64,000 bases of DNA from Pseudomonas sp. BN417 (lineage in GTDB: Bacteria > Pseudomonadota > Gammaproteobacteria > Pseudomonadales > Pseudomonadaceae). Position 1 is the stretch's first letter. Each line of letters begins with the position of its first letter. The notes beneath the pieces are model-generated. The model was not told the DNA's origin, made no database searches, and saw nothing but the letters and a program-made list of their open reading frames with translations. A program made the position numbers and the translations under genes. Location: contig NZ_SSOJ01000139.1 in NCBI RefSeq assembly GCF_029871205.1, positions 46,384 to 110,383 of the forward strand. The letters run 5' to 3'. Below are positions 117 to 37,347 of this stretch, in pieces.

Positions 117-2255
117 TTACACCTTGAACTGATTGATCAGCCGCCGCTGCTGCTCGGCCAGTTTGGTCAGCTCGGCGCTGGCCTGGGAGGCTTCGTCGGC
201 GCCGCCGGCGACTTCGCTGGCCACCTGGCCGATGTTGATCACGTTGCGGTTGATGTCCTCTGCCACCGCGCTCTGCTCCTCGGCGGCGCTGGCGATCTGG
301 GTGTTCATGTCGTTGATCACCGACACCGCCTGGGTGATGGATTCCAGCGCGTGGGCGGCCTCGTTGGCGTGCTGCACGCTGGTGTCGGTCTTCTCCTGGC
401 TGTCCTGCATCACCTTGACCACTTCACGGGTGCCGTGCTGCAGCTGCTGGATCATGGTCTGGATTTCTTCGGTGGCCTGCTGGGTCTTCTGCGCCAGGTT
501 GCGCACCTCGTCCGCCACCACGGCGAATCCGCGGCCCTGTTCGCCGGCCCGCGCGGCCTCGATGGCGGCGTTCAGCGCCAGCAGGTTGGTCTGCTCGGCG
601 ATGCCGCGGATGGCGACCAGGATGGCATTGATGTTCTCGCTGTCCTTGGCCAGGGCCTGCACCACACCCACGGCGTGACCGATTTCGCTGGCCAGGGCGC
701 TGATGGCCTCGACCGTGCTGTGGACGATGCGTTTGCCGTGATTGGCCGCCTGGTCGGCGTGGCTGGCGGCTTCCGCCGCGTGGGTGGCGTTGCGCGCCAC
801 GTCCTGGGCGGTGGCGGTCATCTCGTTTACCGCGGTGGCCACCAGTTCGATCTCCGCGAGCTGCTTCTGCACGCCCTGGTTGGTGCGGATGGCGATGTCG
901 GCGGTGTGCTCGGAGGAGTCGCTGACCTTCTGCACCGAGGTCACCACCTGGCTGATCATCGACTGCAGCTTGCCGAGGAAAGTATTGAATCCACCGGCGA
1001 TGGCGCCCATCTCGTCGGCGCGGTTGTTGTGCAGGCGCTGGGTCAGGTCGCCGTCACCCTTGGCGATGTCGTCGAGCATGCCGACCATATGGCGCAGCGG
1101 ACGGGCGATGCCGTAGCCGACGAACCAGATCACCAGCAGGCCGAGGCCGGCGATCAGCAGGCCCACCAGGGTCATGCCGAAGATATCGGCGTCGCGTTGG
1201 GCGTGCAGGTCGCTTTGCAGCTGGGTCAACTCCTTCATCACCGCCTGCATCGGCAGCTGGATCAGCAGCGTCCAGCGAGCGTCCGTGTCGCCGATGCCGA
1301 AGGGCACCATCAGCTCGATGCGCTGGCTGACCGGGTCGATGCGGTAGGTCGGCTGGTCGTCGCGCAGATCGCGCAGACGGTTCAGGGTGCTGGTGTCGAA
1401 CACCTTGGCGGCTTCTTCGCCGAGCTTGGAGCTGTCCCGGGAATAGGCCACCAGGCGATTGTTGGTGGCGATCAGGGCCAGGTCGCCGGCGCCCTCATAG
1501 AGCTGCTGGTCAGCCTTGGTGAGCAGGTCCTGGATGAAGTTCAGGGAGAAGTCGGCGCCGCTGATGCCGCGGAACTCGCCCTTGACCAGGATCGGTGCGG
1601 TGAAGGAGGAGAGGATCATGATCTTGCCGCCCACGTCATAGGGCGCGGGGTCGATGGCGCAGGGTTTCTTGCGTTCCTTCGGGCAGAGGTAGTACTCGCC
1701 TTCGCGAACGCCAGTGTTGAGCATCTTCTCGCTTTCCATGAAGCCGATAGCGTCCTGGCCCAGGCTGCCGTCGGCGTTGCGGAACCACCAGGGCAGGAAG
1801 CGGCCGCTGCCGTCGTAGCCATTGCCCTTCTGACCGGCATGGCTGGCATCCAGGCCGTCGATGGCGTTGGGCTCCCAGCCGATGTAGCTGCCGTTGAGCT
1901 TGGGGTTGCGCTCGGTGGTCTGGCGCACCAGGTTGTTCAGTTGCTCGCGGCTGATGGTCAGCCTGGGGCTGCCGCTCTCATCCGTTTCGCCCAGCAGCCC
2001 GTTGAGGTTGGCCATGTTCCTGGCGATGCCCAGCGGCAGCTCCAGCTCGCGCTGGATCTGGCTGACCTGGGAACCTGCCAGGGCCACCAGGCGCTGGTTG
2101 ATCACCTGCTCGAGCAGCGCCTGGGTGCGTTGCTGCACCAGTTCCTGGGTGCGCGCACCGGAAAATAGTGCATAGAGCACCAGGGCTGCGACCACCGCCA
2201 GCACGCTGGCTCCTGCCAAGGCTGCGATGGAGAATTGGATGGACCTGAACTGCAT
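117..2255 (-). CDS. Methyl-accepting chemotaxis protein with double-Cache sensor
   Basis: Inner-membrane chemoreceptor of 712 residues that would pass ligand occupancy to CheA/CheW. A first membrane segment lies near residues 8-30, a large periplasmic dCache-type sensor covers roughly 40-345, a second segment is near 357-380, then a HAMP domain and a cytoplasmic signalling domain. The highly conserved hairpin tip is visible ([20 protein letters not shown], about 555-575). Start chosen at 2255 because GGAG lies just upstream and the hydrophobic segment follows at once; a longer frame to 2345 adds a poor leader. Length and the sensor (PWWFR, then a Cys-containing YLCPKE stretch) remind me of polyamine/histamine receptors of the TlpQ/McpU kind, but this ligand is only a guess. 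Confidence 0.93.
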
Positions 2256-33344: not shown

Positions 33345-35378
33345 TCACCCCTCGTTGCCGCACGCCGCCTGGATCGCCGTCAGGGCTATGGTGTGGATGA
33401 TGTCGTCCACCAGCACGTTGCGCGGCAGGTCATTCACCGGCTTGCGCAACCCCTGCAGCATCAGCCCGCCGCTGGCCACGTAGTTGCCCTGTTGCGCTTC
33501 CTTGTAGGCCGCGTCGCCGCTGGCGAGGTCGGGGAATACGAACACCGTGGTGCGGCCATCGCGGGTGGCGGTGGAATAGGGCAGTGGACCGTCGATGGGC
33601 AGGTCGGGGCGGGCCGTGCGGGCCTGCTTGATGGCCTCGCGGACCTTGGCCTCTTCCGCCGCGTCGCCGGAATCGCTGATCAGCGCCACCCGCGGGATGA
33701 TGCCCAGGGCTTCGGCCGAGTCGGCGCTCTGCAGGGCGATTTCCGCCAGGTCGCCGGCATCCGGCTCGGGGTTCACCGCGCAGTCGCCATAGACCACCAC
33801 CTGCTCCGGCAACAGCATCAGGTAGACCGACGACGCCAGGCGGTAGCCGGGGGCCGACTTGATCAGCTGCAGGGCCGGCCGGATGGTGTTGGCGGTGGGG
33901 TGGATGGCGCCCGAGACCAGGCCGTCCACCTCGTCCAGGGCCAGCATCATGGTGCCCAGCACCACGTTGTCCTCCAGCTGGGCGGTGGCCATGGGCGCGT
34001 TCAGGCTCTTGTTCTGGCGCAGCTCCACCATGGGCTGCACATAGCGCTCGCGGACCAGGTCCGGGTCGAGGATTTCCAGACCCTCCGGCAAGGTGATGCC
34101 CTGGGCGCTGGCCACGGCGCGCACGTCCTCCGGCTTGGCCAGCAGCACGCAGTGGGCGATGCCGCGGACCTGGCAAGCCGCGGCCGCCTGGACGGTGCGC
34201 GGCTCGCTGCCTTCGGGCAGGACGATGCGCTTGCCGGCCAACTGGGCCTGCTGGATCAGGCGGTGACGGAATGCCGGCGGCGACAGGCGCTGCGCGCTCG
34301 GCGCGCCGCAGCGTGCGCGCAGCCAGTCGAGGTCGAGGTTGCGGGCGACGAACTCGGTGACTTTCTCTGCGCGCTCGCGGTCGTCCACCGGGATTTCCCG
34401 GTTCATCTTGTTCAGGTTGGTGGCGGTGTCGTAGGTGCCGGTGGCCACGCCCAGCACCGGCAGGCCACCCTGCAGGGCGCCGCGGCAGAGTTCCAGGGTG
34501 CGCGGGTCGGGCTGGATGTCGCTGGAGAGCAGCAGGCCGGCCAGGGGCACGCCGTTCATGGAGGCCAGGCTGGCGGCGAGGATGATGTCGTCGCGATCCC
34601 CGGGAGTCACTACCAGCACGCCGGGCTTGAGCTGCTGCACCGTGTTGGGCACGGTGCGCGCGCATACCACGATCTTCTGCACCCGGCGCTGATCGTAGTC
34701 GCCGGCGTTGATCACCTGCGCGCCCAGCAGGTCAGCGACGTCGCGGGTACGCGGGGCGTTCAGCTCATCCAGCCAGGGCACGCTGCCGAGCAGGCGGAAG
34801 TCGTTGCCGCGCAGCAGTGGCGACTGTTCCTTGAGGCGTTTGGTGAAGTTCTCCTCGCGCACCTTGTTGAGGATCACGCCAAGCACCTTGGGGTCGCGCG
34901 GGCCGCCGAACTGTTGGGCCTGGATCTCGAGGCGGTCGGACAGCTCGGACAGGCTCTCGTCTTCCGGCGCCGACACCAGGATGACATCGGCATCCAGGCT
35001 CTTGGCGAGGTGGAAGTTGATTCGCGCGGCGTAGCTGGCGTGGCGGGTCGGCACCATGCCCTCGACTATCACCACGTCCTTGCCCTGGGCGGCCTGCTGG
35101 TAGAGGCCGGTTATCTCATCCAGCAGCTCGTCGAGCTGGCCGTCGGCGAGCATCCGCTCCACCTGGGACTGGCCCAGTGGCATGGGCGGCTTGAGGCCGT
35201 GGGTGCGGGCCACCAGTTCGGTGGAACGCTCCGGGCCGAGGTCGCCGGGGTGTGGCTGGGCCACGGGCTTGAGGAAGCCGACCTGCAGGCCGGCCAGCTC
35301 GAGGGCACGCACCAGGCCGAGGCTGGTGGAGGTGAGGCCGACGCCGAAGCCGGTCGGGGCGATGAAAAAGCAGTGCAT
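33345..35378 (-). CDS. pta: Phosphate acetyltransferase-like protein with degraded catalytic domain
   Basis: A 677-residue protein with the long Pta layout: an N-terminal BioD-like P-loop domain (APTGFGVGLTSTSLGLVRAL near 7), a central DRTGG domain (about 220-340) and a C-terminal phosphotransacetylase domain. The family converts acetyl-CoA and phosphate to acetyl-phosphate. The C-terminal domain is unusual. Relative to E. coli Pta as I remember it, the loop after IDGPL is about 13 residues shorter and lacks KAPxSPVAG, SYSTGTSGAG has become SDSGDAAEE, and NDLSRG is NDLPRN, replacing the active-site Ser with Pro 652. Catalysis is therefore doubtful. It lies 22 bp downstream of ackA with AGGAG before the ATG. 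Confidence 0.85.
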   Translation of the reverse strand: MHCFFIAPTGFGVGLTSTSLGLVRALELAGLQVGFLKPVAQPHPGDLGPERSTELVARTHGLKPPMPLGQSQVERMLADGQLDELLDEITGLYQQAAQGKDVVIVEGMVPTRHASYAARINFHLAKSLDADVILVSAPEDESLSELSDRLEIQAQQFGGPRDPKVLGVILNKVREENFTKRLKEQSPLLRGNDFRLLGSVPWLDELNAPRTRDVADLLGAQVINAGDYDQRRVQKIVVCARTVPNTVQQLKPGVLVVTPGDRDDIILAASLASMNGVPLAGLLLSSDIQPDPRTLELCRGALQGGLPVLGVATGTYDTATNLNKMNREIPVDDRERAEKVTEFVARNLDLDWLRARCGAPSAQRLSPPAFRHRLIQQAQLAGKRIVLPEGSEPRTVQAAAACQVRGIAHCVLLAKPEDVRAVASAQGITLPEGLEILDPDLVRERYVQPMVELRQNKSLNAPMATAQLEDNVVLGTMMLALDEVDGLVSGAIHPTANTIRPALQLIKSAPGYRLASSVYLMLLPEQVVVYGDCAVNPEPDAGDLAEIALQSADSAEALGIIPRVALISDSGDAAEEAKVREAIKQARTARPDLPIDGPLPYSTATRDGRTTVFVFPDLASGDAAYKEAQQGNYVASGGLMLQGLRKPVNDLPRNVLVDDIIHTIALTAIQAACGNEG

Positions 35379-35400
35379 GGGGCTCCTTGGCGAAAGCGGT

Positions 35401-36567
35401 TCAGGCCAGCAGGGCCAGGGTGTCGAAGGCGATCTGGCGTTCTTCGTTGGTCGGCACTACCAGCACGCGCGGATGGCCGCGCTTGTGGATCGGGCCGGCG
35501 ACGCCGCGCACGCAGCGGGCATTCGCTTCGCGGTCGATGACCAGGTTGAGCAGCTTCAGGTGGTCCACCGTCTTGCTGCGCACGAGGGGCGAATTCTCGC
35601 CGATCTCGCCGGTGAAAATCAGCCCGTCCAGCTGCGGCAGGGCGCAGCCCACGGCGGCCAGGGTCTTGGCCAGGCGGTAGCAGTAGACCTCGACGGCCAG
35701 GGTGGCGCCGGCATGGCCCTGGTCGCGGGCCTTCTCCAGGCTGCGCATGTCGCTGGCCAGCTCCGAGAGGCCGAGCAGGCCGCTTTCCTGGCGCAGCACC
35801 TGGTCGATCTTCTCCAGGCTCCAGCCCAGGCTGCGGTGCAACTGGGTGTAGAGGTGCGGATCGATGTCGCCGCTGCGGGTGGCCATCACCAGGTTCATGC
35901 TGGCGTCGCGGCTCTGGCCATTGACGATGGCGCAGGCGGAACCATGGGCCCCCAGGTGGGCGGAGAGCCAGCAGCTGTCGCCGATGGACAGCCCGGCCAG
36001 TTCGGCGGCGCGATGGCTGACGTAGCGGTGGCTGCTGCCGTGGAAGGCATAGCGGCGCAGGCCGTGGTCGCGGTAGACCGCATCCGGCAGGGCCAGGCGG
36101 TAGACGTGCTCGGGCATGGTCTGGTGGAAGGCGGTGTCGAACACCGCCACATGGGGCAGGTTCGGCAGGAGGTGCATTGCCGCCTCGATGCCCACGAGGC
36201 TGGCCGGCATCTGTTGCGGCGCCAGCGGGGCGAGGGCCTGCAGGCGCCGGATCACCAGCGGTTCCAGGCGGCAGGCCGAGCTGAAGAATTCGCCACCGTG
36301 CAGCACATGGTGGCCGACGCCGTGCAGCTTGCCGCCGGCGGCGCCCTGGACCAGGGGCATGAGCTGGGACAGGGCGGCGCGATGGTCGGCATTGGGGATC
36401 ATCAGGCTGTCCTTGTCGCCGCCGCGCTGCCAGCGCAGTTCGGCATCGCGGCTGCCCAGGCCCTCGGCCATGCCGTGCAGGGTGAACTGGCTGTGGGCTT
36501 CGTTGACCAGGGCGAAGCGCAGAGAGGTCTTGCGGGCGTGGATCACCAGGATATTGCGTGCGGGCAT
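35401..36567 (-). CDS. ackA: Acetate kinase-like protein lacking key catalytic residues
   Basis: A 388-residue ASKHA-fold protein aligned along its whole length with acetate kinase. It retains [11 protein letters not shown] (Asp 144), [10 protein letters not shown] (His 176), TRSGDIDP (Arg 231) and PTNEE. However the phosphate-loop NxGSSS is HARKTS (residues 10-15), GHRxxHGG is GHHVLHGG (His 87), the APLHNP histidine is Gln 119, HLGNG is HLGAH and the GLTPLEG loop is missing. In M. thermophila numbering Asn7, Ser10, Arg91 and His123 are replaced. I translated the first stretch from DNA to confirm. Its start overlaps the DUF3565 stop (TGATG), with pta 22 bp downstream. Confidence 0.87.
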
Positions 36568-36842
36568 CAGGTTTTCTCGATGGAGTCGGGTGCCAGGCCC
36601 TGGGCGCACCAGCCGCAGGGGAAGAAGCGGCCCAGCTGGTCTGCGCGCTGAGCAGGGTCGAGTACCCAGGCGCGCGACTGCCAGGGCGGCTGGTGCCGCA
36701 GGTGTTGAGTATGGCCGCAGGAGAGCAGGGCTACCCAGTGACCGTCCTCGTCCTGTCTATAGCCGACCAGCCGGGGCCGCCCGTCAGCGATCGGGTCGCA
36801 ATCGTCCAAATGGGCGGTTAAACTTGCGCTTTCATCATTCAT
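36567..36842 (-). CDS. DUF3565 domain protein
   Basis: A 91-residue protein containing [20 protein letters not shown], then [20 protein letters not shown], the DUF3565 signature, and a C-terminal [10 protein letters not shown]. The Cys and His positions (CGHTQHxRH and CGWC) suggest a small metal-binding protein; function is unknown. The ATG at 36842 is the first one clear of slyD. Its stop overlaps the ackA start in TGATG, so it heads the DUF3565-ackA-pta operon. It is divergent from slyD with only 19 bp between start codons. Confidence 0.8.
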
Positions 36843-36861
36843 TTGCAGAAGGTCTCGCACC

Positions 36862-37347
36862 ATGCTGATCGCCGCCAACAAGGCTGTGTCCATCGACTAT
36901 ACCCTTACCAACGACGCCGGTGAGGTGATCGACAGCTCCGCTGGCGGCGCGCCGCTGGTGTACCTGCACGGCGCCGGCAACATCATCATCGGCCTGGAGC
37001 GGGCCCTGGAAGGCAAGCAGGCCGGTGACGAGCTGAGCGTCGCCGTCGAGCCTGAAGACGGTTACGGCGAGTACAGCGCCGAGCTGGTCGCCACCCTTGA
37101 TCGCGCCATGTTCGAAGGCGTGGATCAACTGGAAGTCGGCATGCAGTTCCACGCCTCCGGCCCGGACGGCAGCATGCAGATCGTCACCATCCGCGACATC
37201 GACGGCGACGACGTGACCGTCGACGGCAACCACCCGCTGGCTGGCCAGCGCCTGAACTTCCAGGTCAAGGTGGTCAACGTGCGTGATGCCAACGCCGAAG
37301 AGATCGCGCACGGCCACGTTCACGGCGAAGGCGGTCACCACCACTGA
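36862..37347 (+). CDS. slyD: FKBP-type peptidyl-prolyl isomerase SlyD
   Basis: A 161-residue cytoplasmic prolyl isomerase and chaperone. The FKBP core is split by the insert-in-flap chaperone domain (YGEYSAELVATLDRAMFEG, about 72-90). The C-terminal HGHVHGEGGHHH is the metal-binding histidine tail of SlyD, used in nickel handling for hydrogenase or urease. ATG at 36862 follows AGAAGG. It is divergent from the DUF3565-ackA-pta operon, and terminates at a strong hairpin. Confidence 0.94.
   Translation: MLIAANKAVSIDYTLTNDAGEVIDSSAGGAPLVYLHGAGNIIIGLERALEGKQAGDELSVAVEPEDGYGEYSAELVATLDRAMFEGVDQLEVGMQFHASGPDGSMQIVTIRDIDGDDVTVDGNHPLAGQRLNFQVKVVNVRDANAEEIAHGHVHGEGGHHH

Follow-up and report, generated by a model that had tools for sequence, protein, structure and literature searches.

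Phosphate acetyltransferase (Pta) and acetate kinase (AckA) form a textbook route of overflow metabolism and are one of the chief sources of acetyl phosphate, which acts as a signal and acetylates proteins. The locus considered here raises the question of why a pseudomonad would retain a full-length acetate kinase gene in which catalytic residues have been replaced. The gene lies in a window of 64,000 nucleotides from Pseudomonas sp. BN417, the window being the whole stretch of DNA analysed (table 1). A preliminary description had considered a pseudoenzyme plausible. In the reading preferred here, with a probability of about 0.6, AckA and Pta lost function jointly and in place, and both proteins are kept as non-catalytic pseudoenzymes, with a role of the N-terminal half of Pta favoured.

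Table 1. Features of the ackA–pta locus. Nucleotide positions refer to the window and domain limits to residues.
Feature	Position	Strand	Description
ackA, putative pseudoenzyme gene	35401..36567	minus	388 aa + stop; open frame from ATG (36567-35401), active-site residues replaced
AckA codons 10-17	36517..36540	minus	former NCGSSSIK loop, now HARKTSLR; HAR invariant in 13/13 altered copies
pta, putative pseudoenzyme gene	33345..35378	minus	677 aa + stop
Pta domains	AAA_26 4-209, DRTGG 213-325, PTA_PTB 370-668		profile matches
Pta changes (window)			loops of 4 and 13 aa deleted; residue 622 N->D; DLSRG motif S->P
Gap, ackA stop to pta start	35379..35400	minus	22 bp with AAGGAG, ribosome-binding-like
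DUF3565 gene	36567..36893	minus	stop overlaps ackA start (TGATG); context, outside the ackA–pta pair

The window AckA has the ASKHA acetokinase fold and matches the Acetate_kinase family over its full length (PF00871, 331 bits, E 1e-98). Its TIGR00016 score of 318 lies above the subfamily cut-off of 293. The 6.56-Mb genome, for which a check for a second intact copy had been advised, contains no other AckA match, and the neighbours of the gene are the same in relatives; the gene is the resident ackA, as had been supposed, and not a stray duplicate. Residues were mapped by alignment to S. typhimurium AckA and the list of 20 ligand positions in the accessible text of PMC3475010. Compared with a conventional AckA (PF00871, TIGR00016) such as that of P. 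otitidis (genome G004, locus L052), half of the listed positions are replaced. At the ends of the phosphate/metal loop, Asn10 (S. typhimurium) has become His10 and Lys17 has become Arg17. The other substitutions are Arg91 to His87, Val93 to Leu89, Leu122 to Gln118, His123 to Gln119, Asn213 to Ala207, Gly214 to His208 and Gly333 to Glu321, and the six-residue loop holding Pro234 is deleted. Two of the ten changes, Lys to Arg and Val to Leu, are mild. Equivalents of His182 (H176), Arg243 (R231), Asp150 (D144), Glu387 (E375), Asp285 (D273), Arg287 (R275), Gly212 (G206), Ile334 (I322) and Asn337 (N325) are kept; Ala181 is Phe, as it is in normal pseudomonad AckAs. The changes previously listed (the HARKTS loop, His 87, Gln 119, HLGAH, loss of the six-residue loop) were all right, as was the retention of the Asp, His, Arg and Glu equivalents, but Glu321, Leu89 and the damage to Pta had been missed. 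The M. thermophila residue numbers given with that list are assumed ones; the S. typhimurium numbers used here come from alignment.

The altered state is shared by a group of species. The genus sample comprised 18 genomes including the source, and covers Metapseudomonas, the resinovorans clade (GTDB Pseudomonas_F, following the accessible text of PMC10797017). It includes P. boanensis (G001, L042), P. resinovorans (G005, L039) and P. otitidis; the nearest relative of the source is Pseudomonas sp. BN102 (G016, L037). An intact ackA frame is present in 16 of the 18, altered in 13 and normal in three (G004, G008 and G017). The other 12 altered AckAs are 87-98% identical to the window protein, and recurrence of the changes in 13 genomes contradicts a sequencing error, which had been named as a possible refutation. 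Genome G010 lacks ackA: a short remnant, reading IGENS, lies between DUF3565 and a pta with an intact frame (L117:7700-8001). This natural single-gene ackA deletion is usable for tests. In G009, which has a normal-type Pta, ackA consists of two overlapping pieces in different frames (contig C1:1133166-1134343), reflecting a frameshift or an assembly error.

A scan at one genome per species yielded 80 loci: six altered, one duplicate of G004, four from Streptococcus and 69 others. The 69 keep the AckA motifs apart from single changes (FHGTSH to FHGTSY or FHGTSL, APLHTP, PTDEE); the FHGTSH variants occur at L077, L104 and L105 in otherwise normal AckAs. These 69 loci together with G017, G008 and G004 gave 72 normal AckAs after removal of the duplicates (L037-L042, L052) and of the four Streptococcus rows. 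All 20 ligand positions are among the 167 columns invariant in this set. Ten of the 20 are changed in every one of the 13 altered AckAs, against 15 of the 147 invariant columns outside the list (Fisher p = 6.7e-5), and 11 of those 15 adjoin ligand positions or fall in the deleted loop. From these replacements we strongly infer that AckA has lost catalysis and kept its fold: the phosphate/metal loop, the acetate/phosphate Arg, the catalytic-pocket His, the nucleotide-pocket Gly and the substrate loop are replaced or gone. An altered activity, the alternative given in the preliminary description, is possible.

The partner enzyme is damaged in the same genomes. Each genus genome has one Pta, and a second, weak PF01515 match in a 337-aa frame is probably, we assume, PdxA. 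The window Pta is a family member by NF004167 (777 bits, cut-off 418) and PF01515 (264 bits, cut-off 24), and falls below the TIGR00651 cut-off (268 against 311). It resembles a long-form Pta (AAA_26-DRTGG-PTA_PTB) such as that of G017 in domain order, position after ackA and 80% identity. It differs in two deleted loops, GDAAYK in place of GNTTYK, DLPRN in place of DLSRG, and a more constrained N-terminal half. YSTG, of the SYSTGDSG loop, is deleted in all 13 altered members and in G010 (14/14). The KAPxSxVAG loop of 13-14 residues is deleted in 12 of the 13 and G010 (13/14); the P. boanensis Pta keeps it apart from K to Q. GNTTYK reads GDxxYK, or GDAAWK in G002, with N to D in 14/14. DLSRG reads DLPRN in 12/13 and G010 and is normal in P. 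boanensis. HTT is replaced by HPT (RPA in G002) in all 13; the change is absent from G010, whose Pta was read separately. All 72 normal Ptas carry YSTG, KAPxSxVAG, GNTTYK and DLSRG together. In this column set (72 normal, 13 altered; locus L071, without Pta, left out and G009 added), family-invariant columns changed in all 13 number 3/120 in the N-terminal half and 19/198 in the C-terminal half. PTA_PTB scores are 397-402 bits in the four normal relatives, 340 in P. boanensis and 251-280 in the other 13 genomes including G010. P. boanensis looks like an intermediate, with AckA fully altered and Pta partly so.

These replacements bear on whether the two proteins could still be the usual enzymes, only with an atypical active site. 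Both match their families at full length, AckA above the TIGR00016 and Pta above the NF004167 cut-off, and the Asp, Arg and Glu partners are kept. According to the accessible text of PMC6461089, however, R91A alone leaves 0.6% of activity in P. gingivalis AckA and 0.3% of kcat in M. thermophila AckA, and mutation of Asp309, Ser311, Arg312 or Asp318 of P. gingivalis Pta abolishes activity completely or dramatically, with most or all lost in S311A. Many such positions are changed together here. Mapped via DLSRG, the Ser311 equivalent is Pro in 12 of 13 altered Ptas and in G010 and is kept as Ser in P. boanensis; the other three site-1 residues are kept. Ordinary catalysis by both proteins is accordingly very improbable. 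Pta still has several catalytic residues (R454, R500, D650, R653 and D659, window numbering), so a weak or altered activity is possible for it.

Selection on the pair was estimated as dN/dS (NG86, on GC-rich genes) from 78 pairs per gene among the 13 altered genomes. The median is 0.117 for both genes, with a range of 0.032-0.255 in ackA and of 0.051-0.209 in pta. Ratios of means are 0.135 and 0.124, against 0.039-0.171 for six neighbours in the same genomes: slyD 0.082, gpx 0.039, tetR 0.096, oye 0.109, plsC 0.171 and duf3565 0.168. The first four neighbours were named from reading their sequences and the last two confirmed by domain matches. Variable sites at codon positions 1/2/3 number 84/57/263 in ackA and 142/103/503 in pta, and no stop or frameshift occurs in 13/13 altered ackA or 14/14 pta genes. 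Both genes are under purifying selection in the altered clade, which answers for ackA the check in close relatives that had been advised. Open frames, lost catalytic residues and purifying selection, the marks of a pseudoenzyme under selection, are thus found together.

Slow decay would explain the same locus differently: catalysis would have been lost recently, and both genes would be remnants whose frames stay open by chance or through residual selection against misfolding. Such decay would fit the ackA deletion in G010 with its short remnant, the weaker-looking site before ackA in the altered clade than in normal relatives, and the relaxed constraint on C-terminal Pta. It would also fit the fast change between altered and normal groups (dN/dS 0.428 for ackA and 0.303 for pta), although neighbours span 0.085-0.428. 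The rise is not unique to the pair, because ackA merely equals its fastest neighbour, plsC. The unbroken frames, the within-clade dN/dS resembling that of neighbouring genes, the excess of third-position variation and the AAGGAG kept before pta all speak against decay, which is improbable. A frame on the plus strand opposite ackA (35182-36651, 489 aa), of a kind common in high-GC genes, might instead have conserved ackA through something else on the DNA. It is open in the source genome and four more of the 13, but carries stops in eight of the 13, and variation follows the ackA codon phase. An antisense gene is rejected on these grounds, and conservation of this kind can practically be dismissed.

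Constraint is distributed unevenly along Pta. In the altered clade dN/dS is 0.074 in the N-terminal half and 0.158 in the C-terminal half; normal relatives give the reverse order, 0.283 and 0.095, on five and six pairs only. Invariant columns are most frequent in the DRTGG domain (101/113), followed by AAA_26 (167/209) and PTA_PTB (200/305). In the altered Pta, constraint now falls more heavily on the AAA_26/DRTGG half. The former active-site codons are nevertheless not free to drift. In AckA, 25 of their 36 first and second positions never vary, whereas 28.9% of 159 fourfold sites are constant (binomial p = 6e-7); in the C-terminal half of Pta the figures are 12 of 20 positions and 22.5% of 311 fourfold sites (p = 3e-4). 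Former active-site columns of AckA have no constancy above the protein average (11/18 vs 285/388).

This conservation could point to neofunctionalized enzymes, in which remodelled clefts catalyse a different reaction; AckA H10, H87 and H208 with H176, H204, D144 and E375 could form a metal or new-substrate site. H10, R12, H87, Q119, H208 and E321 are invariant in 13/13 altered AckAs, codons of the former active site are much better conserved than fourfold sites, and several Pta catalytic residues are kept. Neighbouring cleft positions vary, however (residue 207 is A/E/D/L, 13 is K/R/A and 118 is Q/D), and the former active-site columns are no more constant than the rest of the protein. Confidence in the AckA model is lowest in stretches that take in the region of the lost loop (pLDDT <50 at 222-230), and one species, G010, has deleted ackA. 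New catalysis is therefore unlikely. The three new invariant histidines beside the kept His, Asp and Glu may be a metal or ligand site.

The layout suggests that ackA and pta form one operon. In 12 of 13 altered-clade members pta begins 20-22 bases past the ackA stop with AAGGAG before its ATG; P. boanensis differs. AAGGAG is still present before pta in G010, despite the ackA deletion. Ahead of the ackA start, 12 of the 13 carry GAGGAA or GAGAAA. In the three normal relatives ackA is preceded by AAGGAG, and pta by AAGGCGG at best. Because AAGGAG sits before pta in the altered clade and was kept after the ackA deletion, these short motifs, which resemble ribosome-binding sites, suggest that Pta may be the more needed product of the pair. 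Of 76 loci searched over the 700 bases upstream of ackA, one has a near match to an Anr/FNR-type box.

Regulators related to the two enzymes in domain or fold offer some guidance. In the hybrid malic enzyme MaeB, a PTA-family domain without PTA activity is kept for regulation as an acetyl-CoA sensor, and the Bdellovibrio protein binds acetyl-CoA through Asn718 and Gln683 (accessible parts of PMC7902834 and PMC12704298). Seven MaeB residues listed there fit the Pta reference at one offset. On this mapping the equivalents of Asn718 and Gln683 are Asp and Pro/Ser in all 13 altered Ptas, and the Asn-to-Asp change gives a ligand-free protein in MaeB. With Asp at the Asn718 position throughout the 13, Pta chemistry and Bdellovibrio-type sensing are probably both lost, and a sensor of this type becomes less likely. 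Equivalents of Arg535 and Lys538, which in MaeB contact the 3'-phosphate according to the same text, are present in 13/13 Ptas as R454 and K457, a mapping by RxxK motif only. CoA or acetyl-CoA may be bound elsewhere on Pta, by analogy, because these two residues are kept and E. coli MaeB uses an acetyl-CoA site different from that of Bdellovibrio (accessible text of PMC12704298). In MaeB the PTA domain is fused to malic enzyme, whereas the Pta described here stands alone with its own N-terminal module. Unlike the ROK repressors, which are ASKHA-fold regulators, AckA showed no DNA-binding domain in the domain search.

Loss of AckA is common among pseudomonads, because 146 of 398 sampled family genomes are without a PF00871 match. 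P. putida KT2440 carries a functional pta of its own, and ackA was introduced into it from an external source (accessible text of PMC7789669). This strain and other pseudomonads with Pta but not AckA are similar in that AckA is dispensable; their full Ptas score as intact, in contrast to the damaged Pta seen here. Of the 398 family genomes, 381 have a PF01515 match stronger than those of the PdxA-like kind; G250 (73% complete) has a partial match, five genomes have weak matches only and 12 none. No full Pta with such a low PTA_PTB score was found outside the genus among the 398, and loss of Pta active-site motifs with the gene kept is confined to this clade within that sample. No second pseudo-AckA outside the genus was found in the 16 genomes read, namely 13 of 14 low PF00871 scorers and three higher scorers; G248 (71% complete, E 3e-11) is the remaining low scorer, and the G052 locus ran to the contig end. 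In eleven low scorers (L151-L161) the match is an acyl-kinase paralogue of full length that retains most catalytic motifs and shares 33-39% identity with the G017 AckA. The paralogue is the sole listed PF00871 match there and has FHGLS, APLHQP and PTDE-like motifs. The clade's changes are absent both from the fragment in G313 and from the distantly related long ORF of G190 (23%), and G208 and G213 are normal, so none of these is a second case.

In trees of the neighbouring genes, ackA and pta, the normal members cluster together (support 1.000 for the neighbour genes); G002 adjoins this cluster with weak support (0.79) in the neighbour-gene tree. Because the normal members group together and the deletions are shared, a single origin of the altered state fits these trees, which cover genes of the locus only. 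Acetate use need not depend on AckA, because acetyl-CoA synthetase is present in 18/18 genus genomes, with at least two rows above the TIGR02188 cut-off in each. Acetyl phosphate from sulfoacetaldehyde acetyltransferase was rejected as a reason for Pta retention: no such enzyme passes the TIGR03457 cut-off in any of the 18.

The following sequence of events would account for the locus. (i) In the ancestor shared by one Metapseudomonas sub-clade, the steps from acetyl-CoA to acetyl phosphate and from acetyl phosphate to acetate would both have lost catalysis with the genes kept. (ii) The AAA_26 and DRTGG domains of Pta would have remained nearly unchanged while the loops and residues of the PTA site were lost. 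(iii) The selected function would then lie mainly in the AAA_26/DRTGG half, acting as a ligand-binding regulatory module. (iv) AckA would be a dispensable or declining partner. Loss of both activities is highly probable, as judged from the residues replaced, and a selected non-catalytic role is likely; the placing of that role in the N-terminal half of Pta is tentative, at slightly less than even odds. A purely Pta-centred role leaves unexplained why ackA is kept in 13 of 14 altered-clade genomes. Repurposing of the pair in one operon as a non-catalytic sensor or scaffold, whose signal is read by the AAA_26/DRTGG half together with the rebuilt AckA cleft, is a minor possibility. For AckA itself, the locus is best read as a resident gene that encodes a pseudoenzyme, because the match is single, the neighbours are the same, residues whose single replacement nearly abolishes activity in other AckAs are lost and selection is purifying. 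The pseudoenzyme proposal thus held for locus, residues and selection and was incomplete in two respects: the change is common to a sub-clade, and Pta is altered too.

Among the matches listed in a search of the open-access literature, with most subscription journals outside its scope, no title or abstract opening dealt with an inactive AckA or Pta in this group. Neither protein appears among the genus signature indels in the accessible part of PMC10797017. Curated family models still label the two proteins as acetate/propionate kinase and phosphate acetyltransferase, and a metabolic model that relies on these labels would therefore be in error. Because relatives with the normal state, with an intermediate one (P. 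boanensis) and with ackA deleted are available, the order of loss can be tested directly. A clade in which both proteins are kept but are probably dead allows non-catalytic roles to be separated from the chemistry, unlike knock-outs in other bacteria.
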